Source: Gammaproteobacteria bacterium (GTDB taxonomy: Bacteria; Pseudomonadota; Gammaproteobacteria; Steroidobacterales; Steroidobacteraceae). From it: 64,000 nt of DNA. The notes under the pieces are model-generated. The model was not told the DNA's origin. It saw only the letters and a program-made list of their open reading frames with translations, and searched no databases. Both the position numbers and the translations under genes were made by a program. Below are positions 230 to 13,248 of the stretch, one piece after another. Every line of letters starts with the position of its first letter. The stretch's first letter is position 1. The stretch is from contig JANYLM010000094.1 in the NCBI GenBank assembly GCA_025357835.1, forward strand, positions 1-64,000, written 5' to 3'.

Positions 230-300
230 AACAAGGGCGTGAAGCACAGAAGGGCGCCAATTTGACCACAGTGCCCCTGGATGCACCAGAACCACACAAA

Positions 301-482
301 GTTACCCCGATAGTTACCCCGGAAATGTCCGGATGCCCCCGATCCTTGGCGATCGTTAGCGACTATCATTTATAGGTCAATTCGAGTCCGGTACACCTAT
401 TTTTTCAGTGTTTGGCTCGAATTCCGTCCATCTCCGATCGTTACCGATCTTCCCCGAACGTCGCGAATTAGTGGGCCCGCTC
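301..482. repeat. Left copy of 182-bp att-like direct repeat
   Basis: This stretch aligns along its whole length with 10177-10359 in the same orientation, with roughly 80-85% identity judged by eye. It starts at a GGGGTAAC-type motif (reverse strand) and ends in ATTAGTGGGCCCGCTC, which in the right copy is the 3' end of a tRNA gene. Past 482 a weaker match to the tRNA T-arm continues (ATCGAAC against CTCGAAC) and then decays. It is best read as an old attachment site carrying a duplicated tRNA 3' end. The rest of 230-576 holds no gene that I can support. Confidence 0.75.
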
Positions 483-576
483 ACCATCGAACTAAGGGGG
501 GAAATATCTATTTTAATAGAGCCAACGCCAATTCGAAAATTGCAGTTACCCCGGCAATAGCAGCCGCAGAAGGGCC

Positions 577-807
577 TCACGCAGCGTATAATTGACGCAC
601 TGCGAGAATATCTTTGGGACCCACTGGCCGCACTAATTTTGTCGTGAGTGCCACCAATGCTTGCGTGTGGCCGGAGGCAGTTACGAATTCCACCTCGATG
701 GCATCTGCTGAATAGACCTGCACCACGGCTCCAACATCGCCGCTTCTCAGCCCATGACTGGGCAAATCAGCCCTCATGACGACCGTATCGAATTCCTTAT
801 AGCTCAT
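577..807 (-). CDS. DUF4926 domain-containing small protein
   Basis: This 76-residue protein matches the DUF4926 pattern: an opening YKEFDTVVMRADLP, then GLRSGDVGAVVQVY, EVEFVTASGHTQALVAL and a hydrophobic end. The family is a small SH3-like beta barrel, often found beside toxin-antitoxin-like or DUF6883-type genes, with no established biochemical role. Here no obvious toxin partner adjoins it. It lies 73 bases after the stop of the minus-strand envelope operon and could be its last gene or be transcribed separately. It is inside the region bounded by the two att-like repeats. Confidence 0.75.
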   Translation of the reverse strand: MSYKEFDTVVMRADLPSHGLRSGDVGAVVQVYSADAIEVEFVTASGHTQALVALTTKLVRPVGPKDILAVRQLYAA

Positions 808-880
808 TGGCTAATCCTTTGGGTATGACGTTTTGGTTGTGCTGCGAACTGCCGGCCTTTGAGGTGTCACGAACCCTTCG

Positions 881-2527
881 TCACGACGCCTCGCCTTTCT
901 TCGCACAACCCTGCGGCACGGCGTCGTACAAGGTCTTGATAGGGGCATGACCAAGGGGGGCGCTGTAGGTCGAACTGATGGGCTTGGCGTGAAAGATACT
1001 TAGAAAGGTGTTGATGGCGCTGGCGGACCAGGTGGGAATGGCCATGCCCACTCCATAATCCATGAACAGATCCAACGTCGCAGACCGGCAGGTGTAACCA
1101 ATCATGGCCCCCTGCGCGTCGGAGCCTTTGGTCATGCCGGCGCTGATGTTGATGCTCGCATAAGGGCCCACGACCAACCCAAGCGCACCGAGTCCGACAA
1201 TGAACTTGCCGCCATAGCCGATGACGAGACCGTTGACGCCGAGTGAGACGCCGGTGAGCGAGTTCGCCAAGTTTTGCTCCGTGCTCACAAACAAGGGAGC
1301 AGTTGCCGTCGGGCTGCCATTGACGATGCCCGCCGTGACGGTGCCGCCGAATTTGTACTCGCCGTTCGCCTTGATGACGGCCTGCTGGGCGGTGAACATG
1401 GTTTCAATCAGGATGCTTTGATGAAACGTTGCCGCGAACGGCACGATGACGGGCATGGGAAAGGATATATCCAGGGGAATAGCAAAGGCCTGATTGACGT
1501 TTTTGAATTCACCATCGGTTCCGCCCTCGATGCCCACATCGAGCGCGCCCACGCCGGCCAACTCCACCGCCGCCGTCTTCAAGCGGCCATTGCTGATGTC
1601 GAGTTTGAAGGTGAACCGCGGCGAGTTGAGTCGAAGAATGGCATGCGCCATGAACTTGATATTCTTGTTTTGCGGGAAGTCGTAATTGATGGTGGCGCCG
1701 AGCCCTTTGCTCACGTCGGGCACGATCTGAAAGCCATTCATCAAGATCGCCGCGATATCCGAGACCCCCGTGCTGACCGGTAACAGACGACCGGGAGACT
1801 GCGTGCGGTTGCACCCGCTCGCGGGGCCGGAGTTGCCGGCGCCCTCGAAATACACGGTCGACGTGGCGGCAAAGGGTGCCGGATCGTCCTCTTCACCCGC
1901 GGCGCAGGGGCTCGGTCGGTAGGCCGCGAGCACCTGCATCGAGGGGTGGCGCATGCGCCGTGCGGTGGTGTCCGTGGCGGCGGGTTCGGGGGCGTTCCGA
2001 TCGAGGGTCGTTCCGGGATACCCCGCCGGGGCTCGATACACCAGCATCGTGGCCGGATCGATGGAACCGCTGTAGTCGATGTGCGCTTCCTTGATGACGT
2101 CGGTGAGTTCGATGGGACCCAAGGTGACAGCGAAATCGGAACCTTTGCGCTCGACTTTGAGAACCCGCCCCACCACCCGCCCGGTCGCAAACAGAATCTT
2201 GCCGGGCTCAATGCTCGACGCGCCCTGCGCTGCACCATCGATGGTCCAGGTAAATCCATCGGAGGTCGGGGCACGAAGCGCTTCCGCGCCGTGTTCCATG
2301 ACGATGACATCGGGCTGATAGGTCACGCGCGGGTCCAATTTCGGCGAGACGCCGTACCGGGATTCGGCCTCGCTCAATATCGGCGCCGGCGCGCCCGCAG
2401 GTACGCTCGTCGGGGCTTCCGCGCCCGACGCGGCGGGCGACGCGGCGCGTTTGCAGCCACCGACCAACGCTGCTGCCGTCAGGAGCGCGACCCCGATCAA
2501 GGACGACCTCGGCCGCAGCAGACGCAC
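881..2527 (-). CDS. Large predicted lipoprotein of unknown function
   Basis: The 548-residue product begins with a signal peptide ending in VGGC, so Cys25 is the probable lipidation site. A low-complexity Ala/Pro/Ser linker follows. I recognise no domain. The middle contains repeated beta-type hydrophobic/polar alternation, and the last 200 residues are rich in Gly and Ala, with predicted transmembrane-like or amyloid-like glycine stretches (GLGALGLVVGPYASINI). Several cysteines in the mature part could form disulfides in the periplasm. The start is GTG at 2527, three bases after the stop of the upstream DUF4412 gene, so the two are probably cotranscribed and may act together at the cell envelope. 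Confidence 0.7.
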   Translation of the reverse strand: MRLLRPRSSLIGVALLTAAALVGGCKRAASPAASGAEAPTSVPAGAPAPILSEAESRYGVSPKLDPRVTYQPDVIVMEHGAEALRAPTSDGFTWTIDGAAQGASSIEPGKILFATGRVVGRVLKVERKGSDFAVTLGPIELTDVIKEAHIDYSGSIDPATMLVYRAPAGYPGTTLDRNAPEPAATDTTARRMRHPSMQVLAAYRPSPCAAGEEDDPAPFAATSTVYFEGAGNSGPASGCNRTQSPGRLLPVSTGVSDIAAILMNGFQIVPDVSKGLGATINYDFPQNKNIKFMAHAILRLNSPRFTFKLDISNGRLKTAAVELAGVGALDVGIEGGTDGEFKNVNQAFAIPLDISFPMPVIVPFAATFHQSILIETMFTAQQAVIKANGEYKFGGTVTAGIVNGSPTATAPLFVSTEQNLANSLTGVSLGVNGLVIGYGGKFIVGLGALGLVVGPYASINISAGMTKGSDAQGAMIGYTCRSATLDLFMDYGVGMAIPTWSASAINTFLSIFHAKPISSTYSAPLGHAPIKTLYDAVPQGCAKKGEAS

Positions 2528-2530
2528 GCT

Positions 2531-3307
2531 CTAGCCCCCCCGTTGCCGCAAGGACTTCATCATCGGATTTTCAACCTTGGTAAAGCCCGCGGGCACGTCC
2601 CAGGTCGCGGCCGGAATGGGCGCCCGGCTTACGTCGGTGACTTCGGTGGCGGTCGTGAGCTTCGTGATGCCGACATCGACCGTACTCGTGGAGGCCACGG
2701 GAAAGCCCTTGATGCTCTTCATCTTCTCTGCATAGTCAGCGCCCGACTTGGCGCTGGGCCCAAAACTCATGGATTTGCGCATCGATTCTTGGAATTCCGC
2801 GAGCGCGGCCCAGCTCTGGACCGGATACTTGAGGTCATTGGTAACGCATTCGGTCATGCTCATCATGCCGCCCATGTTGATGAGCCACTCCTCGCACGCG
2901 TAGCCGGCCACCTTGCGGGTGACACCGGTTTTCTTCACTTCCGTATTGGAGGCCATGGACGAACTCATGCCTTGCATCATGGCCATCGCCTGCTTCATCT
3001 TCGGGTCGTTCATGCGCGCAGCCATGGCCGCTTGCATGGCCTCCATGTCTTGCCTGGACAGGATGAAATAGGTCTTTTTCTTGCCGTCGATGTTGGTCAT
3101 CGTGCCGCTCTTGAGATCGATGATCACATCGTTGCCTTTCGATTCGGAGTGGCGAATATGATCGCTTGAGATGTAGCTGGTCTGAGTACCTCCCGGCTGA
3201 CCGTTGGTCATGACATTGGAGACCACCGTCAGATCGTCCGCCATGCAAGTCATGCTGGCTGAGCCGGTTGCCGCGAGAATCGTCAACGATAGAAGCCCAA
3301 TTTTCAT
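2531..3307 (-). CDS. Secreted DUF4412-type protein
   Basis: I place the start at 3307 because AGGAG lies six bases upstream and the product then opens with a clean signal peptide (MKIGLLSLTILAATGSAS). The mature part, about 235 residues, resembles DUF4412 proteins: an N-terminal segment dealing with a SDHIRHSESKGNDVIIDL strand, a Met-rich central helix (about residues 90-125) and a C-terminal strand ending near WDVPAGFTKV. The function of the family is unknown; its members are exported beta-rich proteins. The Met-rich helix could bind copper or lie on a membrane, but this is only a guess. The gene sits between an OmpA-like gene and a lipoprotein gene in one minus-strand operon. Confidence 0.7.
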   Translation of the reverse strand: MKIGLLSLTILAATGSASMTCMADDLTVVSNVMTNGQPGGTQTSYISSDHIRHSESKGNDVIIDLKSGTMTNIDGKKKTYFILSRQDMEAMQAAMAARMNDPKMKQAMAMMQGMSSSMASNTEVKKTGVTRKVAGYACEEWLINMGGMMSMTECVTNDLKYPVQSWAALAEFQESMRKSMSFGPSAKSGADYAEKMKSIKGFPVASTSTVDVGITKLTTATEVTDVSRAPIPAATWDVPAGFTKVENPMMKSLRQRGG

Positions 3308-3348
3308 AAATGCTCCTGCAAAAAGATGAACGGTTCGCCAGTAAACGA

Positions 3349-4461
3349 TCATTGCCGGGTGAGTTCGACCCGTCGGTTGCGGGCGCGCCCCGCCAAAGTG
3401 GTATTGGTGTCGCGCGGCACCGAGCTGCCAAATCCGGAGGTCACGAGGCGGGTCTCAGAAACGCCCAGGGGAATCAGAGCGGCGCGCACCGCCGCCGCGC
3501 GCCGCGCCGATAGATCCTGGTTGGCCGGCGCGCCGCCGATGTTGTCGGTGTGGCCTTCGACCGTGAGCGACCACTGCGGATTCTTCTTCATGACGTCTGC
3601 GATGGTCTGCAGCATCGCAGCGGACTGCGGCTTGATCGTCGCGCTGTTGAAATCAAAATAGATTCCGTATGTCACCGCGCGATGATCTTTGGCGAGCGCG
3701 CTCTCGAGAGATTGGGCGGGATTTTCGACCGGGTAGGAGATTCGCACGATGTCCGTCTTGTCGGTGCCGAAGGCAGCGCGCAGCGTGATGGGATTGTGCG
3801 GATCATCGAGGATGTACCACTCAACGGGCACCGCGGCTCCGGCCTGCTGGAAGTCGCCTTTGACATGCCAGGCAGACAGAGATACCAGGGCATCGTTGAC
3901 GATCATCGGGTACAGCACGGGCTTGGGCTCTACAGCACGAATAGTACCGGCGGCGGTCAAGTAGGGTGTCCTCGGCTGATTCGAACTCGCTCCGGGCACC
4001 ATTTGCAAAAAACCACCCAGCATCGCCGCCAGTCCGCCCATCTCGCCATCGAGCGTGACCGCGGCAGCGCCGCCCGTCCGCAGCTCTCTGATGACGGCAG
4101 CCGATGTCCCCATGGCTGTTGTGCCGGGGTACTCATCGGCGCCGGTCGAGAACATGTATTTGTAGGTGCGCGCCTGGTCGCGGTCGCTGGAATTCACGTC
4201 ACGGCTGAACGAAACCGGCTTGGGCTTTCCGCCCGCCGGGTCCGGCAGATCGGCGGAGATCGTGAGATGCAGCATCCCGTCGGCATCCAAGTCTTCGACA
4301 TTCAGGGTGGATTCGTAGTCTCCCTGGCGCTCGCTGACGGCGTGCACCAGCGTCAGTCCCGGGATGAGCGGAATCACCACGGGCGATGCAGCTGCCAGCG
4401 CCGCAGCCAACCCGAACAACAGCACGAGAGAAAATGCCTGCGATCGGCGAAAGCGCTTCAC
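3349..4461 (-). CDS. OmpA-family peptidoglycan-binding envelope protein
   Basis: The 370-residue product has an N-terminal signal peptide (residues 1-25), a central domain of about 235 residues that I do not recognise, and a C-terminal OmpA-like domain from about residue 265 (YGIYFDFNSATIKP, then VEGHTDNIGG and LSARRAAAVRAAL). The OmpA-like domain normally binds diaminopimelate in peptidoglycan, and the TD..R residues needed are present (HTDN and the LSxxRA helix). The GTG start overlaps the stop of the upstream lipoprotein gene by four bases (GTGA), indicating translational coupling. It probably anchors this envelope operon's products to the cell wall. Confidence 0.85.
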   Translation of the reverse strand: MKRFRRSQAFSLVLLFGLAAALAAASPVVIPLIPGLTLVHAVSERQGDYESTLNVEDLDADGMLHLTISADLPDPAGGKPKPVSFSRDVNSSDRDQARTYKYMFSTGADEYPGTTAMGTSAAVIRELRTGGAAAVTLDGEMGGLAAMLGGFLQMVPGASSNQPRTPYLTAAGTIRAVEPKPVLYPMIVNDALVSLSAWHVKGDFQQAGAAVPVEWYILDDPHNPITLRAAFGTDKTDIVRISYPVENPAQSLESALAKDHRAVTYGIYFDFNSATIKPQSAAMLQTIADVMKKNPQWSLTVEGHTDNIGGAPANQDLSARRAAAVRAALIPLGVSETRLVTSGFGSSVPRDTNTTLAGRARNRRVELTRQ

Positions 4462-5144
4462 AGTTTCGACAGCACTTTGGTGGCCAGCGCGACGGCAACC
4501 GCGCGTCCTTTGACTTCCTCCGGTGTTCCCTGCTTTTTGCTCACAGCGGCGACGGTGGCGAGGGCGCCCTGCATGTCGTCGGCGCCTTTCAACCCTGCTT
4601 GCAGCGGGTCATGCTTCTCGGTCTTCATGAAATCCTTCATTGCCTGAGCTTGCTCCGGCGAGCCCATCCTGGCCTCGGTCACTTTGCCGAATGCCGCCAT
4701 GGCTGCGATCTGCTGATAGTTCGGCGGTTGAATCGTGATGACCGTGTCGCCTTTGCGCACGTAGAGGACCGACATTGCGCCGAAGAACGCGTCGTCGCCC
4801 AAATGTGGGACGTCCTCGGCCGTACCGCCGAGCATGCCGGTCGCCTTGCGTGCGCCTGCCATGGACCCTTCCGAGTCGTTTTCATCCTCGACGCCGACAG
4901 TGGCCTCCAGTGACAGAGTGGCGGTTTTGTAGTCCATATCGCTTGCGGCGCCTTCCGCCGATGTGACCGGCTGGCCAAGGATGGCAGACACCTCGTCGCG
5001 CGTAAGCACGCCTAGGCCCGCGCCGTGACGGCCGGCAGCGTCGTACCGCGCGGCTTTCTCCGCGTGCGCCTTGGCAGCCGGCGACTGACCGCACGCGGTC
5101 AGACAGATCGCCAGCAGAGTGAGTGAACATAGGGGTATCTTGAT
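4458..5144 (-). CDS. Predicted lipoprotein, probable non-standard ATC start
   Basis: From the first conventional start (GTG at 5009) the product is 183 residues and lacks any export signal. The frame, however, is open further upstream and encodes a textbook lipoprotein signal, KIPLCSLTLLAICLTAC, followed by GQSPAAKAHAEKAARYDAAG. The only codon at the right place is ATC (5144-5142), preceded by GGGAAGGG at a normal ribosome-binding distance. I therefore annotate 228 residues with an ATC start, or an ATG lost by point change. The rest is unrecognised; it has a DEVSAILGQPV segment typical of small periplasmic proteins that bind or sense an unknown ligand. It is first in the minus-strand envelope operon. 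Confidence 0.6.
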   Translation of the reverse strand: MKIPLCSLTLLAICLTACGQSPAAKAHAEKAARYDAAGRHGAGLGVLTRDEVSAILGQPVTSAEGAASDMDYKTATLSLEATVGVEDENDSEGSMAGARKATGMLGGTAEDVPHLGDDAFFGAMSVLYVRKGDTVITIQPPNYQQIAAMAAFGKVTEARMGSPEQAQAMKDFMKTEKHDPLQAGLKGADDMQGALATVAAVSKKQGTPEEVKGRAVAVALATKVLSKL

Positions 5145-5447
5145 GGTGGAGCCCTTCCCGTGAGCTGGTGCTGTTGTAGAAATTGATCGCTCGATAGGGA
5201 ATACGGCAACGGAGAGGTTCTACTGACATCGGCGTCGTGAATCGGCCGCTGTTCGATCCTGCTGAAGTCGTTGCGGACACCGGTGGCCCTTCGCACGGCC
5301 GGCTCGTCGAGCTTATGGATCGCAATCAATTGCCTGCACTCTCAGCTAGCTTGGATCCTGCAATCGGACATAACGCGGCGGTTGCGGAACTGCGGGAATG
5401 AGATCAACCTGCCTTGCGTCACCGCTACAAGGCAAGTGCCGGATACC
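5145..5447. promoter_or_regulatory. Divergent control region between envelope operon and sigma-factor operon
   Basis: This 303-base stretch separates the first gene of the minus-strand envelope operon from the plus-strand ECF sigma gene, so promoters for both must lie here. I see no reading frame that I would support and no sharp sigma-70 box pair. ECF-dependent promoters would not be recognisable without knowing this factor's specificity. The layout suggests that the sigma factor may control the envelope operon, which is inference only. Confidence 0.4.
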
Positions 5448-5984
5448 ATGGAAACCGCCGAACCTTCCGAGCGCCTGTTTGCGCAGGCCTACGATGAGTT
5501 GCGCCGCATCGCGAGTCAGCAACGCCGGCGCGTCGGCGAATCGGCCACATTGAATACGACGGCTCTTGTTCACGAAGTCTATCTCAAATTCTCGGCCGGA
5601 TCGCTCGCGCAAGGACTCGACCGGGCGCATTTCCTTGCGTTGACCGCCCGAGCGATGCGTCAGGTGCTGATCGATCATGCGCGCAGCCGCATTTGCATCA
5701 AGCGCGGCGGTGAGATCATTTTCACCGAAGCGGACGAGAATCACCGAGACGCCTCGGGCGACATGGCGGACATCCTCGCGCTCGATCAAAGCCTGAACGA
5801 GCTTGCGGAGCTCGACGCACGCGCGGGGCAGGTGGTCGAGTGGCATGTCTTCGGCGGGCTCAGCATCGAGGAAATCGCGGCACTGCAGGGGCTCACCGTG
5901 CGCACTGCCTATCGAGATTGGCGCCGCGCCCGCGCCTTTCTGGTGCAGCGACTTGGCCTGACCGACGCGGTTACGGCACGCTGA
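5448..5984 (+). CDS. ECF sigma factor, sigma-70 X6 / kinase-associated type
   Basis: The 178-residue product has sigma region 2 at about residues 10-85 (TTALVHEVYLKF, ARAMRQVLIDHARSR) and region 4 at about 112-170 (LDARAGQVVEWHVFGGLSIEEIAALQGLTVRTAYRDWRRARAFL). The TxLVHExYLKL pattern in place of the usual acidic DLxQExF motif marks the TIGR02999/X6 group, which overlaps ECF43. Members of that group studied in Vibrio and Xanthomonas are switched on by phosphorylation from a neighbouring Hanks-type kinase. The start at 5448 is the Met that gives the normal family length. The kinase gene begins one base after this stop, so the pair is an operon. Confidence 0.88.
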   Translation: METAEPSERLFAQAYDELRRIASQQRRRVGESATLNTTALVHEVYLKFSAGSLAQGLDRAHFLALTARAMRQVLIDHARSRICIKRGGEIIFTEADENHRDASGDMADILALDQSLNELAELDARAGQVVEWHVFGGLSIEEIAALQGLTVRTAYRDWRRARAFLVQRLGLTDAVTAR

Positions 5985-5985
5985 C

Positions 5986-7263
5986 ATGGATACCGAGCGC
6001 TGGCGTCGCATCAGCGCAGTGTTCGATCAGGTCGTCGAAACCCCGCCGGGCGAGCGCACTGCGTTGCTTGACCTTGCCTGCAATGGGGACGACAGGTTGC
6101 GCCTCGAGGTGCAGTCCCTTATCGATGCCGACGCAGCCGGAGAAGTTCTCGAGCGGCACGCACCGAAGCTTCGCAACGCTGTCGCCATGGAGTGGGCACG
6201 GGATGTCGATGCAGCGCCGGTTGGAAGCATCGTCGGCTCCTGGCGAACGCTCCGCGAATTGGGCCGCGGCGGTATGGGTGTCGTCATGTTGGCGGAGCGT
6301 GTGGACGGCCAATTCGAGCAACGCGTCGCGCTGAAGCTGATCAAGCGCGGCATGGATAGCGAAGCCGTGCTGACCCGCTTCCTGCGTGAACGCCAAATCC
6401 TGGCGCGGTTGTCCCATCCCAATATTGCCCGGCTGCTTGACGGCGGCCTGTCGGCCGACGGCCGCCCCTACTTCGTCATGGAGTACGTTGAGGGCGCGCC
6501 GATTCTGGACTATTGCGCGGGTCACTCTCTCGGCCTCCGCGCACGGCTCGACTGCGTTCTGCAAATTTGCGCGGCTTTACAGTTCGCTCACCGGCGGCTC
6601 GTCGTACACCTCGATATAAAGCCCTCGAACGTCATCGTCACCGAAAGTGGTGAAGTGAAGCTGCTCGACTTCGGGATCGGCAAGCTGCTCGGCGAGATGC
6701 CCGACGATGCCGCCATATCGACCCACACACATCGGCAGCGGCCTCTGACGCCGGGCTATGCGTCTCCGGAACAATTGCTGGGAGAGCCGGTCAGCACGGC
6801 GACCGACGTCTACGGGATCGGTTGCCTGCTTTATGAACTTCTCACGGGTTATCGGGCAACGGGAGCCGTGGCGCCGGCAAGCCTCGACGAGGCGCTGCAC
6901 GGGATCAGCCGCAATGAACCGTTGGCGCCGAGCAAGGCAGGCTCCGCTCAAAAGGTCCCAGGGATTTCCTTGCGAAAGCTGCGGGGCGACCTAGACACCA
7001 TCGCACTCAAGGCATTGAAGAGCGAACCGGAGCGGCGCTATCCGACAGTGGACGCCCTGGCCGAGGACCTACGACGGTTTCTTGACGGGCAACCGATTGC
7101 AGCCCGGCGCGACACGCTGCTTTACCGCTCGGGCAAGTTCGTCGCGCGCCATCGATTCGGCGTCGGGCTCGCAATCCTTGGCTTGGCAGGTTTAGTGGCG
7201 GCGACCACCTTTGCCCTAGTGCAAGCAGCAAGTGCGCGCACGCACTGCGCGCGCAAGCGGTGA
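5986..7263 (+). CDS. Hanks-type Ser/Thr protein kinase, N-terminal part of frameshifted kinase-TPR gene
   Basis: The 425-residue product has an 80-residue N-terminal segment common in sigma-linked kinases, then a kinase domain: glycine loop GRGGMG (93-98), Lys117, HLD (208-210), Asn215 and DFG (228-230), followed by a transmembrane segment at about 392-413. HRD is changed to HLD, so it is a non-RD kinase. Right after the membrane segment the frame ends (TGA 7261-7263), while the next frame continues with the TPR domain expected in this architecture; the intact paralogue at 25083-27533 shows what is missing. A one-base loss in the GC-rich run around 7232-7240 explains the break. Its likely target is the sigma factor encoded just upstream. 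Confidence 0.85.
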   Translation: MDTERWRRISAVFDQVVETPPGERTALLDLACNGDDRLRLEVQSLIDADAAGEVLERHAPKLRNAVAMEWARDVDAAPVGSIVGSWRTLRELGRGGMGVVMLAERVDGQFEQRVALKLIKRGMDSEAVLTRFLRERQILARLSHPNIARLLDGGLSADGRPYFVMEYVEGAPILDYCAGHSLGLRARLDCVLQICAALQFAHRRLVVHLDIKPSNVIVTESGEVKLLDFGIGKLLGEMPDDAAISTHTHRQRPLTPGYASPEQLLGEPVSTATDVYGIGCLLYELLTGYRATGAVAPASLDEALHGISRNEPLAPSKAGSAQKVPGISLRKLRGDLDTIALKALKSEPERRYPTVDALAEDLRRFLDGQPIAARRDTLLYRSGKFVARHRFGVGLAILGLAGLVAATTFALVQAASARTHCARKR

Positions 7264-8951
7264 CCCAGTATCTCGTCGATGTGTTCCGCGTTGCGGACCC
7301 GAAACGCATGCCGGGCGGTCTCAAGCTCAGCGTACGCGAAGTGCTGGATGCCGGCGCAAAGGGCCTGCAGAGCCAGCTCGACCAGCAACCGCAACTCGAG
7401 GCTTCGTTTTCTGCTGTGCTGGGCAGCATCTATCAAGGTTTGGGCGAAAACGATCGCGCCATCGACCTGTTGCAACACTCGTTGAATTTGGGCGCGGCCG
7501 ATGGGCCGGGCGAGGTCTCGCACGCCGACACGCTCGCACTGTTGGCGCGCGCGGAATACGAGAAGGGCGACTATTCATCGGCTGCAGAAATGTCAATCCG
7601 GGCTCGTGCCGAACACCTCGCGCAGGGAAGAATCGAGAGTCCTATGATCGCCAATGACCTCGCGCTGCAGGGTGAGATCGCGCGCCGCGAGGGCGAATTC
7701 GCGAAGGGCGCGGCACTGCTCAGACAGGCACTTGCAATGTCTCGCTCGACGATAAGGAGCCCGAACGCGCAGATTGCTGCCCAACTCAATCAGCTCGCCG
7801 CGCTGTACGGCGACATGAATCGAATCGACCAGGCCACTCAGTTGACCGAGCAATCACTGGCTATGTTCCGTTCGCTGTACGGAGAGAACCATCTCGATGT
7901 CGCTGAGAATCTCGTCAATCTCGGCGTGTTTCTCATGCAAACCGATCGCATCGCTCGCGCGCTGCCGGTGTTTGATGAAGCCATCGCGATTTACCGCCGC
8001 CTGCTGCCGTCCAATCATCCTCTGCTCGCGCTTGCGCTCGCGAACGAGGCGCGTGCATTCGATCGTTTGAAGCGCTATCACGATGCCGATCCGCTATATC
8101 GAGAAGCGCTGCAGATGCAGCAACAAGTCCTCGGCCGCAAGCATCCGGACCTGGCCACGACCTTGAACAACCTGGCGGTGCTGCGCATGCACGTCGACGA
8201 TTTCTCGGGCAGTGCCGACTACAGCCGCGAAGCCATGGCCATCTGGGCGGCGCAGGGCAAGCCCGAGCATCCATTCGCCCTGATCTCGAAGGCCCACCTT
8301 GCGACGGCGTTACGAGAATCGGGAGACTTGGTGCAATCCGAACTTATCACTCGTGAGGTTCTGGCTGCGCGCCGGCGACAGCTGGGCGAGGAGAGTCGTG
8401 CCGTGGCGATGAGCTTGGATGATCTCGGCATCGTATTGCGCTTGACCGGGCACGCCGAGAAGGCCGTCACGGAGCAAAAGCATGCGCAGACCATACGCGT
8501 GGGATTGAGCGACGTGCCGCCGCAGGAGGCGGCCGCCGCGCGTGTTCAGTACGCTCTCAGCGAATCCGGCGCCGGCAACTACGAGGATGCGCGCCGCGAC
8601 GTCGAGGCCGGAATAGCGCAAATCACAGGCATGAAAGCGGTCGATCAGGAACAACTGGCGAACGCCATTCTGGCCGATGCCCGCATCGAACTCTGCGGGC
8701 ACGACGTAGCGCTCGGCTGCACGCTCGCACGACAGGCGCTCTCCATGCGTCCCCCGGATGATCCGGATACCGGCTGGCGACATGCCGAGGCGCAGGGTGT
8801 CTATGGCGAGTGCTTGGCCAAGCGCGGCCAAATGCGGCCAGCCCGGTATCAGTTACAGGCCGCCCTCGCCGCCTTGGAGCGCGCGCGGGGCGCGGATCAC
8901 TGGATGACACGCAACGTGCGGACCACCTTGCTCGCTCTGCGGAAGGCGTGA
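7260..8951 (+). CDS. TPR-repeat protein, probable C-terminal part of the frameshifted kinase
   Basis: The 563-residue product starts with TQYLVDVFRVADPKR and VREVLDAGAKGL, which aligns with SSFLVNLFKLSDPEENRGN and ARELLDSGAKRL inside the intact paralogue, so it is not a natural N terminus. Tetratricopeptide repeats of the kinesin-light-chain kind fill about residues 40-450 (for example LATTLNNLAVLRMHVDDFSGSADYSREAMAIW). Such periplasmic TPR sensors follow the membrane segment of these kinases and probably bind a protein or peptide signal. A GTG at 7260 overlaps the kinase stop as GTGA, so separate translation by coupling is possible, but a frameshift (true or from sequencing) is simpler. Confidence 0.85.
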   Translation: MTQYLVDVFRVADPKRMPGGLKLSVREVLDAGAKGLQSQLDQQPQLEASFSAVLGSIYQGLGENDRAIDLLQHSLNLGAADGPGEVSHADTLALLARAEYEKGDYSSAAEMSIRARAEHLAQGRIESPMIANDLALQGEIARREGEFAKGAALLRQALAMSRSTIRSPNAQIAAQLNQLAALYGDMNRIDQATQLTEQSLAMFRSLYGENHLDVAENLVNLGVFLMQTDRIARALPVFDEAIAIYRRLLPSNHPLLALALANEARAFDRLKRYHDADPLYREALQMQQQVLGRKHPDLATTLNNLAVLRMHVDDFSGSADYSREAMAIWAAQGKPEHPFALISKAHLATALRESGDLVQSELITREVLAARRRQLGEESRAVAMSLDDLGIVLRLTGHAEKAVTEQKHAQTIRVGLSDVPPQEAAAARVQYALSESGAGNYEDARRDVEAGIAQITGMKAVDQEQLANAILADARIELCGHDVALGCTLARQALSMRPPDDPDTGWRHAEAQGVYGECLAKRGQMRPARYQLQAALAALERARGADHWMTRNVRTTLLALRKA

Positions 8952-8984
8952 CACCTGTCGTCCGCAAAAAACCCGGTCACGCTC

Positions 8985-9308
8985 ATGCGGGCGCAAGAAA
9001 GTATTCGTGATGCAGCCCACCCAATATTGGCTTCATGGACGGCGTACGATTCTCCGCGGCGATGGCGAGAATTTGGATGCGGGTGGAATATGCAGCGCCG
9101 GGCACACGAAGCGGTCCTCGATGCGATGCAGCGGCGGCTGAATCCCAAGTTGGACGCCATGACGCTACGGCGACGAACCATCGAACATGTCTTCGGAAAG
9201 CTGAAGCACTGGATGGGTTCTAATCACTTCCTCACCCGCAGACTTGAAAACGTTGGCACGGAAATGAGCCGGATGGTGCTCGCTTACAACCTCAAACGCG
9301 CCACTTAA
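8985..9308 (+). pseudogene. Transposase remnant, IS1182-like C-terminal fragment
   Basis: Only the last 80 or so residues resemble a transposase: RRAHEAVLDAMQRRLNPK, RRRTIEHVFGKLKHWMG, NHFLTRRLENVGTEMS and VLAYNLKRA. This is the C-terminal block of IS1182/DDE_Tnp_1-like transposases, with the catalytic glutamate in IEHVFG. The upstream catalytic aspartates are absent and the sequence before about 9070 does not match, so the element is a decayed remnant. No complete terminal repeats were found around it. It separates the kinase/TPR gene from the truncated ion channel gene and may be what broke the latter. Confidence 0.75.
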
Positions 9309-9477
9309 AACTAAGTGATGTGTGCCACAAAGCCGGTTCCGCCCACGTTCTCACACAGCCTCGGCCGATAGCGGTCGGATTTCGTCGGGCAACCGCACGC
9401 ACGGCGCCAAGCCGCCGTTACAGTCAAGCGCATGCCAAGAGAATCCATGAGCTTTCGAACCGATTCATAACGCGGCT

Positions 9478-10026
9478 TTGCGCCCGGGGCTAGGAGCAGT
9501 TGACCCTTACTTGAGCAACCGAGAGAAATTCCCGCAAATAGAGTTTGCCGGACACTTCCGCGACGCGTACGACAATTGGTACAAGCAGCTCCACCCGACC
9601 TCTTCTATGCTGAAAGCTGCGTTAGACATACTGTGGTTCAAGATCAGAGTTTGGGTTACTCCAAAATATTTTTGGCTTGCACTTTCCTACAAGCGCCAGT
9701 ATGTGATTAGCCTGTTCGAGGCGGCCCTGTGGGGTTATGGAGAAAGGCCGGGGAGGGTCTTCTTATTTGCCACTGTGGCGATTATCGCGTTCACGACAAT
9801 CTACTTCGTAGGTCATGACCATCTTACTAACTTCCCGACGTCGGACTGGTTCGATCGCCTGTTCAATTCTGCGTATTTTTCGGTCGTGACATTCACTACA
9901 TTAGGGTACGGCGACATTTATCCGGGGAACAACGCAATGAAAGCTGTGTGTGCGGCCGAGGCGCTAACTGGGGCATTCACCATGGGGATGGTGGTCGCGG
10001 GATTCGCAAATCGAGGGAGATACTGA
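9478..10026 (+). CDS. Two-TM potassium channel protein, probably 5'-truncated
   Basis: The 182-residue product has two membrane segments (about residues 92-110 and 160-177) flanking a pore loop with the selectivity filter TTLGYGD at about 141-147, so it is an Ion_trans_2-type K+ channel. The part before the first membrane helix (about 90 residues, aromatic-rich) resembles the linker seen in bacterial channels that carry an N-terminal pentapeptide-repeat or cytosolic domain. The frame is closed by a TGA at 9448-9450 and the first start available is a TTG without a good ribosome site. The native N-terminal domain therefore seems to be missing, and the gene may not be expressed. Base use is more AT-rich than that of its neighbours. 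Confidence 0.65.
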   Translation: MRPGLGAVDPYLSNREKFPQIEFAGHFRDAYDNWYKQLHPTSSMLKAALDILWFKIRVWVTPKYFWLALSYKRQYVISLFEAALWGYGERPGRVFLFATVAIIAFTTIYFVGHDHLTNFPTSDWFDRLFNSAYFSVVTFTTLGYGDIYPGNNAMKAVCAAEALTGAFTMGMVVAGFANRGRY

Positions 10027-10176
10027 GGAGCGATGACGTCAGCTAATTCGATTATGCAACGTGCGAAATCGAATTGAATCCGGAAAAGCGAATTAGAGAG
10101 AATTACATGCAGTTTTCGCGCTGATTTTACTCATCAAACGGCGCGTTACGGGGGTAACTCCAACAGGACACCCAAA

Positions 10177-10359
10177 GTTACCCCCAAAGTTACCCCGGAA
10201 ATGTCCGGCTGTCCCCGATCTTCGGCGATCGTTAGCGACCATCGTTTGTAGGCCAATTCGAGTCCGATACACCTGTTTTTCCGGTGTTTTGCCCCGAATG
10301 CCGTCCCTCCCCGATCGTTACCGATCGTCCCCGACCATCGCAAATTAGTGGGCCCGCTC
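10177..10359. repeat. Right copy of att-like direct repeat, adjoining the tRNA 3' end
   Basis: This is the partner of 301-482. It starts with two GGGGTAACTTT-type direct repeats (reverse strand, about 10177-10200; a further half-copy lies near 10150), which may be integrase arm sites. It contains inverted CGATCGTTA(G/C)CGA motifs (about 10226 and 10311) and ends inside the last 11 bases of the tRNA gene. An element that integrates into a tRNA 3' end leaves exactly this arrangement. No integrase gene is present between the two copies. The remainder of 10027-10176 shows no gene. Confidence 0.75.
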
Positions 10360-10651
10360 GGACTCGAACCGAGGACCAAGGGATTCACTCTAGCCCCGCC
10401 GTTTCCGGAGGGAGTGGACTATCTCTTCACCCCAGTGGGGTGCGGGACGCTCTAGCCTGTTATTAAGCGCACCTTAAGCGCTCAGGTAGTCTCTGCACCT
10501 TCCGGCGGTGTACCGCCGGCTTGGCTCAGGGTTGCCATCAGCCTTAGGCTGTTAAGGTTTCCCTGAATTCATCCCGTCCACTTCGCACCTTGCGATGCGA
10601 AGGCACCATTATTGATGAGTCCCCTGCTCTAACCAACTGAGCTACAGGCCC
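10349..10651 (-). tRNA. tRNA-Ile(CAU)-type gene interrupted by a group I intron
   Basis: On the minus strand exon 1 (10651-10615, 37 nt) gives the acceptor strand GGGCCTG, a normal D-arm (GCTC AGTTGGTTA GAGC) and GGGGA CTCAT. Exon 2 (10385-10349, 37 nt) gives AA TCCCT, a variable loop, T-arm CTCGG TTCGAGT CCGAG, acceptor CGGGCCC and discriminator A. Joined they make a 74-nt cloverleaf with loop CTCATAA, so the anticodon is CAT. The acceptor and the CTTGGTC variable region resemble minor isoleucine tRNA (C34 modified to lysidine by TilS) rather than elongator or initiator Met; identity is inferred. CCA is not encoded (CTA follows). The 3' end is the integration target of the neighbouring repeat. 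Confidence 0.9.
10386..10614 (-). ncRNA. Group I intron (self-splicing ribozyme) in the tRNA anticodon loop
   Basis: The 229-nt insert follows anticodon CAU and ends in G, as group I introns do. Visible on the minus strand are a guide GGUG near the 5' end that pairs with CAU through a terminal U-G wobble (P1), a P2 hairpin CTTCGCA/TGCGAAG, P3 CGGGAT/GTCCCG, P4 TCAGGG (10566-10561) with CCCTGA (10531-10526), P6 CCGGCGG/CCGCCGG (10519-10513 and 10508-10502), P7 GACTA (10491-10487) with TAGTC (10421-10417), P8 AGCGC/GCGCT and a P9 stem capped by GAAA. The ATGGCAACCCTGAGCCAAGCC-like core and AGAGACTA/GATAGTCC boxes match the IC3 introns of bacterial tRNAs, such as the well-known Azoarcus tRNA-Ile intron. 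No homing endonuclease is encoded. Confidence 0.92.
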
Positions 10652-10710
10652 GACGGGGCGCATCTTATCATGCGTCGGCAAGCCTGCCCTTGGGTTATCT
10701 TAGGGTGCTC

Positions 10711-13248
10711 GTGAGCCCTCCTCCGCTACCCAATTTACCCATCAATGAGGCCCTGCCGGCGCTGGCCCAGGCTCTTGCAGCGCGCCGCAGTGTGCTGTTG
10801 GAGGCCCCGCCGGGTGCGGGTAAAAGCACCATAGTGCCGTTGTTCTTGCGCGCAAGTCCTTGGCTTGGGAAGCAAAAGATCTTGATGCTGGAACCGCGCC
10901 GCATTGCCGCGCGCGCCGTAGCCAGCCGCATGGCGCATCTGCTCGGGGAGCCCGTCGGCCAGAGCGTCGGGTTTCGCACCCGGCTCGAGACGCGGGTGGG
11001 CCGTGAGACCCGCATCGAAGTGGTCACGGAGGGCATCCTCACACGCATGCTGCAGGATGACTCGAGCCTGACGGGTATCGGCTGCGTGATCTTCGACGAG
11101 TTCCACGAACGCAGCTTGAATGCCGACTTGGGGCTGGCGCTGTGCATCGAATGTCAGCAGAACCTGCGCGAGGATTTGCGTATCGTGGTGATGTCCGCGA
11201 CCCTGGATTTGCAGCCCATCGCCAAGCTGCTGGGGGACGCGCCCATCGTCGCCGCGCGCGGCCGCAGCTTTGAGGTAGCGACCCAGTATGTGGCCCGCCG
11301 CCCCGAAATCTACATCGAACAACAAACGGCGCAGTTGCTGCGTACGGTCCTGCGCGAGCACGACGGCGACATCCTGTGCTTTTTGCCGGGTGCGGCGGAA
11401 ATTCGTCGGGTGCAGCGCGCCCTGGAGGACGCGGGGCTGGATCGCCATGTGCGTGTGCTGCCTTTGTACGGCGAACTGGAGGGTGCGGCGCAGGATGCGG
11501 CCCTCATGCCGGCGCCAGCGGGACAGCGCAAAATCGTTCTCGCCACCAGCATCGCGGAAACCAGCCTGACCATAGAAGGCGTCCGCGTGGTCGTCGATTC
11601 AGGATTGCGACGCTATGCGGAGTTCGATCCTGCTACGGGCATGAGTCACTTGGTCACCACCAAGGTCTCGCAGGCGGCAGCCGACCAACGCCGCGGCCGT
11701 GCCGGCCGTTTAAGTGCGGGCACCTGTTACCGTCTATGGTCGGAGGGAACTCAGGCGTCCCTAGCGCCGCAAACGGCGCCGGAAATACTGCATGCAGATC
11801 TTGCTCCCCTGGCTCTGGAGCTCAGTTGCTGGGGTGCGGTGGACGCTGGGGGCCTGCGCTGGCTCGATCCACCGCCCGCAGCGCCGCTGGCGCAAGCACG
11901 TGATTTATTGCATCAGCTCGAGGCTGTCGATTCGGGCCTGCGAATCACTGCGCATGGAAGAATGCTGGCGAAGCTTGGGCTGCATCCACGACTGGCTCAC
12001 ATGCTCGTCAGGGCGCGCGAACACGGCGCGCCGCGCTTGGCCTGCGACCTCGCGGCCATCTTGAGTGAGCGCGACATCTTGCGCGCCGGCGCCGGCGCGC
12101 GCGATGTGGATCTGCGGCTGCGCGTGGCGGTAATGCGCGGCGATGTGCGGGATTTGCCGCCGGGAATCACCGTGGACAATCGTGCCATGACTCAGGCGGC
12201 GCGCAGCTCGGCGCATTGGCAGCGCGACTTTATACGCGGCCGCCCGGACTCGGTGGATCCGCATGAATGGACCGGCATACTGTTGGCCTGGGCCTATCCC
12301 GACCGCATCGGCCAAGCGCGCAGCGACGGCGGCCGATACTTATTAGCGAATGGGCGAGGCGCACGCTTCGGGGAGCCACAAGCGCTGTCCAAAGCCGACT
12401 TCATCGTGGCGGCGGAATTGGACGGCGCGGAACGCGAGGCGCGGATTTTCTTAGCCGCCCCACTGAGGCTGGCGGATCTTGAGGAGCATTTCTCGGCGCA
12501 AATCTACGATCACGCCGAAATATCCTGGGACGTTCGCGAACACGCCATCCGCGCGCGGCGCGAGCGCCGCCTGGGCGCGCTGCTGCTGGAATCAGCCGAA
12601 ATTCGCCATCCCGACAGTCAAGCAATGCAGGACGCGGCGCTTGTGGGCCTGCGGCAACTGGGCATCGATGGCCTGCCGTGGAGCGCGGAGTTGCGACAGT
12701 GGCGGGCACGCGTGGGATTGATGCGGCAATATGCGGTGCCGGCACCGGAACCTTGGCCGGATTTGAGCGACACGGCGCTCGCCGCCACTCTTGATGAATG
12801 GGCAATACCCTGGATTTCCGGTTTTACCCGTCGCGAGCACTTTTCGCGACTGGATCTGGGGCAGGCATTGCGAGCTCGTTTGACCTATGGGCAAGGCGTG
12901 ATTTTGGACCGGGAGGCGCCCACCCATTTCACCGTTCCCAGCGGTTCAGCGATACCCATCGATTACCTGGACGGCGAGATTCCCACCTTGTCGGTGCGCC
13001 TGCAGGAAATATTCGGCCTGCACCAGACACCGAGCGTCGCCGCCGGCCGGCTGCCGCTGCTGCTGAAGCTATTGTCACCGGCGCGCCGTCCGGTGCAAAT
13101 TACCCGCGATCTGATGAGCTTTTGGAATCGTGGCTACCATGAGGTAAAAAAAGACTTGAAGGGTCGGTACCCAAAGCATTACTGGCCGGAGGACCCCTAT
13201 ACCGCCGAACCTACTCGCCGCGCACGGCCGCGCACGCCTTCCCGCTAG
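10711..13248 (+). CDS. hrpB: ATP-dependent helicase HrpB
   Basis: HrpB is a DExH-box RNA/DNA helicase-like ATPase of uncertain physiological role, about 820-850 residues long in other proteobacteria. From GTG 10711 the product is 845 residues. Walker A (APPGAGKST) is at about residues 32-40, DEFH at about 129-132 and the SAT motif at about 162-164. Then come the helicase C domain (SIAETSLTIEGVRVVVDSG, QRRGRAGR), the HA2 domain and the HrpB-specific C-terminal domain ending in YPKHYWPEDP. An earlier TTG at 10690 is possible, but AGGG before GTG 10711 and the fit to the family favour the later start. The MATE gene begins within its stop codon. Confidence 0.93.
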   Translation: MSPPPLPNLPINEALPALAQALAARRSVLLEAPPGAGKSTIVPLFLRASPWLGKQKILMLEPRRIAARAVASRMAHLLGEPVGQSVGFRTRLETRVGRETRIEVVTEGILTRMLQDDSSLTGIGCVIFDEFHERSLNADLGLALCIECQQNLREDLRIVVMSATLDLQPIAKLLGDAPIVAARGRSFEVATQYVARRPEIYIEQQTAQLLRTVLREHDGDILCFLPGAAEIRRVQRALEDAGLDRHVRVLPLYGELEGAAQDAALMPAPAGQRKIVLATSIAETSLTIEGVRVVVDSGLRRYAEFDPATGMSHLVTTKVSQAAADQRRGRAGRLSAGTCYRLWSEGTQASLAPQTAPEILHADLAPLALELSCWGAVDAGGLRWLDPPPAAPLAQARDLLHQLEAVDSGLRITAHGRMLAKLGLHPRLAHMLVRAREHGAPRLACDLAAILSERDILRAGAGARDVDLRLRVAVMRGDVRDLPPGITVDNRAMTQAARSSAHWQRDFIRGRPDSVDPHEWTGILLAWAYPDRIGQARSDGGRYLLANGRGARFGEPQALSKADFIVAAELDGAEREARIFLAAPLRLADLEEHFSAQIYDHAEISWDVREHAIRARRERRLGALLLESAEIRHPDSQAMQDAALVGLRQLGIDGLPWSAELRQWRARVGLMRQYAVPAPEPWPDLSDTALAATLDEWAIPWISGFTRREHFSRLDLGQALRARLTYGQGVILDREAPTHFTVPSGSAIPIDYLDGEIPTLSVRLQEIFGLHQTPSVAAGRLPLLLKLLSPARRPVQITRDLMSFWNRGYHEVKKDLKGRYPKHYWPEDPYTAEPTRRARPRTPSR

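Follow-up and report, generated by a model that had tools for sequence, protein, structure and literature searches.

A tRNA-Ile(CAU) gene, the only one found in a gammaproteobacterial genome, is split by a predicted group I intron with a P7.1 domain also found in phage introns

The minus strand of the window (the whole 64,000-nt stretch of DNA analysed) reads from 10651 to 10349 as a complete tRNA-Ile(CAU) after removal of 229 nt between U36 and A37 (Table 1). Each exon is 37 nt long; in the minus-strand reading the 5′ exon ends in CAT, and the intron begins with CAATAATGGTG and ends in GAGTG. The original prediction, made from the letters alone, had placed a group I intron directly after the CAU anticodon, at the site occupied in Azoarcus, and had proposed an RF00028 search as a check. 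The exon/intron reading agrees with it, and the search gave a match at 10627-10395 of the minus strand that covers the model from end to end (positions 1-253), with 77.8 bits against a gathering score of 50 and E 4.8e-18. It is the sole RF00028 match in the 4.05-Mb assembly. The elements listed in the prediction are all present in the sequence: a guide able to pair with CAU, a conserved P7 (GACTA/TAGTC), a GAAA-capped P9 (GGAAAC) and two features expected of group I introns, the U-G wobble of the 5′ splice site and the terminal G. This confirms that the intron in tRNA-Ile(CAU) was observed correctly to the base.

Table 1. Features of the split tRNA gene and its surroundings (window coordinates)
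Feature	Position	Strand	Evidence or remark
5′ exon of tRNA-Ile(CAU), G1 to U36	10615..10651	-	sequence; ARAGORN -i cloverleaf
Group I intron, 229 nt	10386..10614	-	RF00028, 77.8 bits; junctions from conservation across introns
3′ exon of tRNA-Ile(CAU), A37 to discriminator A73, then CTA, not CCA	10349..10385	-	
Internal guide GGUG	10604..10607	-	can pair with CAU and intron C1 (P1), U-G wobble at the splice site
P7 5′ strand, GACTA	10487..10491	-	
P7 3′ strand, TAGTC	10417..10421	-	
P7.1/P7.1a insertion between P7 and P3	10456..10486	-	CCUG-A-[GCGC..GCGC]-UUAAUAA-CAGG
hrpB-like helicase, divergent neighbour on the tRNA 5′ side	10690..13248	+	
tRNA-proximal att-like repeat, overlaps last 11 nt of the tRNA	10169..10359	+	191 bp, 87% identical to 293-482
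Distal att-like repeat, ends in last 11 nt of the tRNA, without intron	293..482	+	
Stretch between the repeats	483..10168	.	OmpA-like, DUF4412, ECF sigma factor, protein kinase, TPR protein, DDE transposase fragment, ion channel fragment

Standard tRNA searches had been expected to miss or split this gene, and they do. Plain ARAGORN reported no tRNA in the window. With introns allowed, it found a 229-nt intron and full cloverleaf pairing of the joined exons, but the junction was shifted and the gene was called tRNA-Gln(ctg). A scan of the genome with RF00005 gave 34 matches, none of them at the split gene. In annotated genomes of intron-bearing groups tRNA-Ile(CAU) may seem to be absent.

The analysis was extended to 110 loci, comprising the window, 29 relatives and 80 of at least 119 scan loci. 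These contained 98 introns; six further loci were without the AGAGACT motif, four were without a 3′ exon that could be found and two held introns of 23S rRNA genes. The 98 are not fully independent, as L121, L124, L140 and L152 are on the same contigs as other relatives in the set. For the guide, 95 introns were counted, without L098, L136 and L143, which have a second 5′ exon or are mis-delimited. A guide GTG lies close to the intron start in 94 of the 95, the base preceding it pairs with the first intron base as C-G in 89, and the last intron base is G in all 95. L098 (at 1187) and L136 (at 5309) have, some 200 bp before the intron-bearing gene, a second 5′ half of tRNA-Ile that stops close to the anticodon. 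The 23S rRNA introns are in genomes of the same family (L038, 1227-1454 and 1501-1755; L059, 1501-2151), and the two in L038 sit 46 bp apart.

Between P7 and P3 the window intron carries a 35-nt insertion that can form two stems: CCUG, an A, an inner stem, a linker of the UUAAUAA type and CAGG. We analysed pairing in 17 introns, the window intron and 16 relatives chosen from those fetched (genus, family and order). The structure drawn on the window is paired in 96.4% of cells across these introns, and 22 of its 65 pairs change on both sides. None of 500 shuffles reached either the paired fraction or the value for two-sided changes, and slid partners paired in 33-44% of cells. This excludes chance pairing as the source of the structure. 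With presence defined as at least six of eight pairs, P7.1/P7.1a was found in 87 of the 98 introns, and all 87 show eight standard pairs out of eight. The second pair of the inner stem is C-G in 22, G-C in 44 and A-U in 21 of them, while in shuffles an average of 43 pair.

The 11 introns without the domain are four of the Azoarcus type (L098, L101, L134, L157), six with another stem between P7 and P3 (L093, L118, L143, L153, L139 and L035) and one interrupted by N (L058). Among 39 further loci of the same scan, read later, 26 were of the P7.1 type with eight of eight pairs, four were of the Azoarcus type, all labelled betaproteobacteria, three had another stem and six were without the P7 motif. 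Two of the introns with another stem differ in other ways. The one in L035 (genome G051, 1501-1721) follows position 36 of a putative tRNA-Lys(CUU) with tRNA genes around it. The one in L139 (Hymenobacter coccineus, minus strand) is a 667-nt tRNA-Ile(CAU) intron with an HNH-like ORF, which matches phage HNH endonuclease families (phrog_2255, E 3.7e-20) and gives only a weak treble-clef match in Pfam; it is a possible mobile form at the tRNA-Ile(CAU) site.

The original prediction had named two findings that would count against it, the lack of a group I covariance match and a second intact tRNA-Ile(CAU) with this copy not transcribed. The covariance match is there, and no second gene was found by the RF00005 scan, in the fetched loci or by pattern search in the genome, a fragmented assembly (148 contigs, 94% complete) from which an unbinned copy could be missing. 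The 30 fetched tRNA loci include one CAU tRNA, which reads as initiator Met, and four unfetched RF00005 matches, 82-84 nt long, are unlikely to have Ile identity. The genome also encodes TilS (E 6.4e-40), so that a sole CAU tRNA of this type and TilS, as expected for a lysidine-containing tRNA-Ile2, occur together. In the genus, 21 of 23 genomes gave a match to the intron-bearing tRNA-Ile(CAU) pattern, among them every one of the 13 best assemblies. The intronless pattern matched none of the 23, and in G002 and G014 the pattern search found neither form. TilS is above the cut-off in 19 of the 23, with weaker matches below it in two and no match in two. Two genomes gave two intron-bearing matches each (G010, C4 and C48; G018, C255 and C316); three of these four matches are near contig ends, and the doubling may reflect a true second copy or assembly overlap. 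In a class-wide sample of 185 genomes, 12 matched the intron-bearing pattern and 123 the intronless one. G170 is the single genome with both, about 12 kb apart on contig C10 (264905 and 277311).

Since the only source found of an essential tRNA is interrupted, its transcript must be spliced, and with no intronless copy found by pattern in the genus the window intron should be spliced as well; that it would splice itself follows from the family to which it belongs. Taking the mechanism of the group I family as a guide to both splicing and maturation, the pre-tRNA would fold so that P1 forms between the guide GGUG and the CAU end of the 5′ exon. A guanosine bound in P7 would attack after the U-G wobble, and the freed U36 would then attack behind the terminal G, giving joined exons of 74 nt that would pass to end maturation and modification by TilS.

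The history of the intron was examined in a tree of 93 introns, which left out L098, L136, L143, L139 and L058. One starred clade of 22 (SH-aLRT 96) consists of all 19 rows of the genus and three records that duplicate some of them, and the rows of Dyella, Rhodanobacter, Lysobacter and Luteimonas fall in another starred clade of 14. In 18 of the 20 genus loci hrpB begins no further than about 215 bp upstream, the exceptions being G004, with a fragment 2.5 kb away, and G010, with only 4 bp of upstream sequence. Distances between hrpB genes and between introns are correlated (r 0.68, p 1e-4, in 16 of the 20 genomes with a genus locus). By these comparisons the intron looks nearly fixed in the genus and inherited vertically with the chromosome. 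It also occurs outside Gammaproteobacteria, in an Opitutia MAG and in a MAG labelled Actinomycetes, which shows either transfer or contamination.

Introns at the same site were also found in phages. In the Klebsiella jumbo phage RCIP0023, tRNA-Ile(CAU) is split at the same position by a 231-nt intron of the P7.1 type; the gene lies between annotated tRNA-Ser and tRNA-Asn genes and is itself unannotated. KP13-7, Muenster and phiKp_21 gave full-query matches at 99-100%, and a fifth record matched over 84% of the query at 88%. The unannotated gene is at about 822-1130 of L213 (OR532817.1), in the phage tRNA cluster, and is present in OP617745.1, MT708547.1 and LC768485.1 as well. In Muenster, an HNH endonuclease gene comes after the next tRNA. 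These phage introns share gene, site and P7.1 type with the window, and differ in being phage-encoded, richer in A/T, placed in a phage tRNA cluster and unannotated in the records. The core of the RCIP0023 intron has an identity of 0.74 to that of the window, the highest of 11 phage introns compared.

The intron-bearing tRNA-Ile pattern was further found in 14 contigs of IMG/VR (L356-L369). A 3′ exon completing the anticodon stem is present in 12 of the 14, and seven are above the RF00028 cut-off at the site. Seven contain introns of the Azoarcus type (L356, L358, L360, L362, L363, L365, L368), among which L356 and L360 appear to be one sequence; three are of the P7.1 type (L357, L366, L369), and L361 and L364 hold longer inserts. 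Ten proteins encoded on five of these contigs were compared with PHROGs, and five gave a match: in L356 a terminase and a ParB-like protein, in L357 an ATPase and an endonuclease, and in L368 a phage-type NAMPT; the two proteins each from L363 and L369 had no PHROGs match. Intronless tRNA-Ile(CAU) is commoner than the intron-bearing form in viral contigs, with at least 120 stretches. According to the passage cited here from a review (PMC3984707), the phage introns known by 2014 were all located in protein genes. Our literature search for intron-bearing phage tRNA genes found none, with a query so narrow that this proves little.

The P7.1/P7.1a domain is also present in phage introns within protein genes. 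We found it, with a linker of the UUAAUAA or GUAAUA type, in the psbA intron of S-PM2, in the terminase intron of Vibrio phage 11895-B1, in crAss-like phages and, at nrd genes, in introns of Vibrio and Shewanella phages; among the introns compared, domain and linker are absent from T4 nrdD and from two Staphylococcus phage introns. What these domain-bearing introns share with the window is P7.1 with nested P7.1a and the linker, all between P7 and P3. They differ in location, those named from S-PM2, Vibrio and crAss-like phages being in protein genes. Some have an additional hairpin, which we read as P7.2, and in some of the records there is an endonuclease gene at the intron or close to it. 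Their core identity to the window is 61-72%, counting those in protein genes or unassigned places.

The prediction had assigned the intron to the same place and class (IC3) as that of Azoarcus. The place holds; the class is not supported, as the Azoarcus-type introns compared have no such insertion between P7 and P3 and core identity to them is 55-62%. It could still be argued that this is an ordinary IC3 intron of the Azoarcus type which gained an extra stem in Gammaproteobacteria and represents no separate lineage. The insertion site and guide logic are indeed the same and the core motifs similar. In a first core tree, calculated without the viral tRNA introns, neither a single clade of all tRNA-Ile introns (p-AU 0.41) nor a clade of gammaproteobacterial and Azoarcus-type introns (p-AU 0.52) was rejected, so that a common ancestor of the window core and the Azoarcus type is compatible with this tree. 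Against a single lineage, the same stem and linker are found in the phage psbA, terminase, nrd and crAss-like introns. With the insertion removed, seven of the 11 phage introns are 65-74% identical to the window core, compared with 55-62% for the four Azoarcus-type introns, although the other four phage introns fall at 54-62%.

Adding the viral tRNA introns placed ten Azoarcus-type introns (four bacterial, six viral) on one side of a branch with support of 100/97, and 47 other introns together (99/95). The exception is L129, from Opitutia: its intron has the P7.1 stem and yet sits on the Azoarcus side. This later tree was calculated without T4 nrdD and the two Staphylococcus phage introns, which are long or divergent; the end motif truncated the core of L366, the boundaries of L143 and L139 are imperfect and the bootstrap had not settled. 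A clade of the P7.1-type tRNA introns without the phage protein-gene introns was not rejected (p-AU 0.106). Together these comparisons give moderate evidence for a separation of Azoarcus-type from P7.1-type cores, and we consider the origin from a single Azoarcus-type lineage unlikely, though it is the best of the alternatives.

Because phage tRNA-Ile(CAU) genes carry both types at the site, phages carrying tRNA genes are a concrete candidate for the vehicle, and the same-site phage introns hint at how such introns spread. Two group I lineages, the Azoarcus type and the phage-type P7.1, may each have colonised the tRNA-Ile(CAU) site, with homing or recombination seeding the hosts, followed by fixation and vertical inheritance. 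We regard the chances for and against this course of events as about even.

On its 3′ side the split tRNA adjoins an integration site, as had been predicted: the att-like repeats bounding a putative island both end in ATTAGTGGGCCCGCTC, whose reverse complement gives the final 11 nt of the tRNA and 5 nt more. The two repeats, at 293-482 and 10169-10359, contain GATCGTTACCGATC and GTTACCCC motifs. Direct repeats of the tRNA 3′ end are as expected of an island targeted to a tRNA gene. An island's own site-specific integrase was not found in nine ORFs scanned between the repeats; as window base 1 is also the first base of the contig, such a gene may be located beyond it. Within 1-230 the contig opens in what reads by eye as the putative C-terminal part of an IS6-like transposase, and the island side is therefore cut by the assembly. 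The distal copies in G000, G008, G011 and G015 have TTCGAYGGTGAGCGGGCCCACTA in common, which suggests one family of small islands with no integrase in view.

The island end seen in the window is present in six of 23 genus genomes, and these are the six whose tRNA ends in ACTA; in the other 14 with the tRNA end read it is ACCA. In the window's own genome, ARAGORN made 48 calls in the fetched tRNA loci (repeats of the same genes included), and every one ends in CCA. The encoded CCA reads CTA with the family of elements seen here. Since several relatives outside the genus also have no encoded CCA, the element would not be the only route to its loss. Four genus members (G004, G010, G011, G015) have repeats of 20 to 61 bp starting 11-19 nt before the tRNA end, and G008 has the repeat core; most of the remaining members show no repeat within the fetched sequence. 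In G019, the frame of a tyrosine integrase starts no more than about 15 bp from the intron-bearing tRNA. Islands integrate at the 3′ end of the tRNA, downstream of the intron.

The prediction had asked whether the intron moves with such elements or blocks them. The distal repeat is without an intron, and the intron therefore did not travel with this island; att-like repeats or integrases adjoin several intron-bearing copies, and it is therefore no absolute barrier. For archaea, Randau and Soll proposed that tRNA introns prevent integration, in the account given of it in a passage of PMC4090602. Extended to bacteria, this would mean that the intron is kept as a shield of the tRNA gene. Among loci with at least 1.5 kb of sequence, an integrase was found up to 1.2 kb downstream in two of 68 intron-bearing and 11 of 86 intronless genes (p 0.039), but with all loci of at least 300 bp the numbers are five of 88 and 12 of 89 (p 0.12), and the counts ignore relatedness. 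The intronless set consisted of 90 of the 123 loci, and the profile was built from the strongest Pfam hits and is probably mostly Xer-like. The deficit of integrases is thus weak and depends on the cut-off. Several genus members also have att-like repeats past the intron-bearing copy, and directly after one such copy comes an integrase frame. The repeats use only the last 11-19 nt of the tRNA; these belong to the acceptor and T-arm part, which is left untouched by the intron and lies out of its reach. Retention of the intron as a shield is in our judgement improbable; partial shielding may still occur, and the locus lets the proposal be tested in bacteria.

Two further explanations fare worse. 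The loss of the encoded CCA in the window copy, and the fact that activity is argued from sequence, could be taken to mean a decayed pseudogene or a dead intron, but a sole copy with full cloverleaf pairing, compensatory changes and TilS in the genome makes this very improbable. That the intron comes and goes together with its neighbour, the downstream island, was rejected and is hardly credible at all: the distal repeat lacks it, its pattern is in 21 of 23 genus genomes against six of 23 for the island end, and it had no match in a plasmid collection.

Overall, we give a probability of about 85% to the following reading: the sole tRNA-Ile(CAU) gene found in this genome is split after U36 by a predicted catalytic group I intron that is nearly fixed and inherited vertically in the genus, belongs to a set of introns with a P7.1/P7.1a domain also seen in phages, differs in this domain from the Azoarcus type and has islands integrating downstream of it.

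One of the closest known systems is the Azoarcus intron, a small group IC3 intron that interrupts tRNA-Ile(CAU) after U36 and whose 5′ splice site is marked by a U-G wobble. The window intron shares with this type the gene, the U36/A37 site, the guide logic, the small size and similar core motifs. In Azoarcus-type introns the 3′ strand of P3 directly follows P7, whereas the window has its two-stem insertion there, and the three bacterial ones measured are 203-212 nt long compared with 229 nt. An extra pairing between P7 and P3 is also found in group IA2, in IStrons and Pf-WMP3. In the parts of the sources cited, IA2 introns are described with P7.1 and P7.2 (PMC3428280, PMC4227781), as is Twort (PMC1995217), and IStrons with an extended domain 9 of P9.1 and P9.2 (PMC3428280, PMC4227781). 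The window has P7.1 with nested P7.1a and no second hairpin, and a single P9 hairpin followed by 9 nt to the splice site. Assignment to IA2 was rejected because there is neither P7.2 nor an extended P9. The T4 nrdD intron is noted as group IA in its record. Group I introns of bacterial tRNA genes are listed for cyanobacteria and for alpha- and betaproteobacteria in the passage cited from PMC4033280, which refers to work of 1992 and 1996. By the comparisons made here, the tRNA-Ile(CAU) site is also used by a second architecture, with P7.1, which is common in Gammaproteobacteria.
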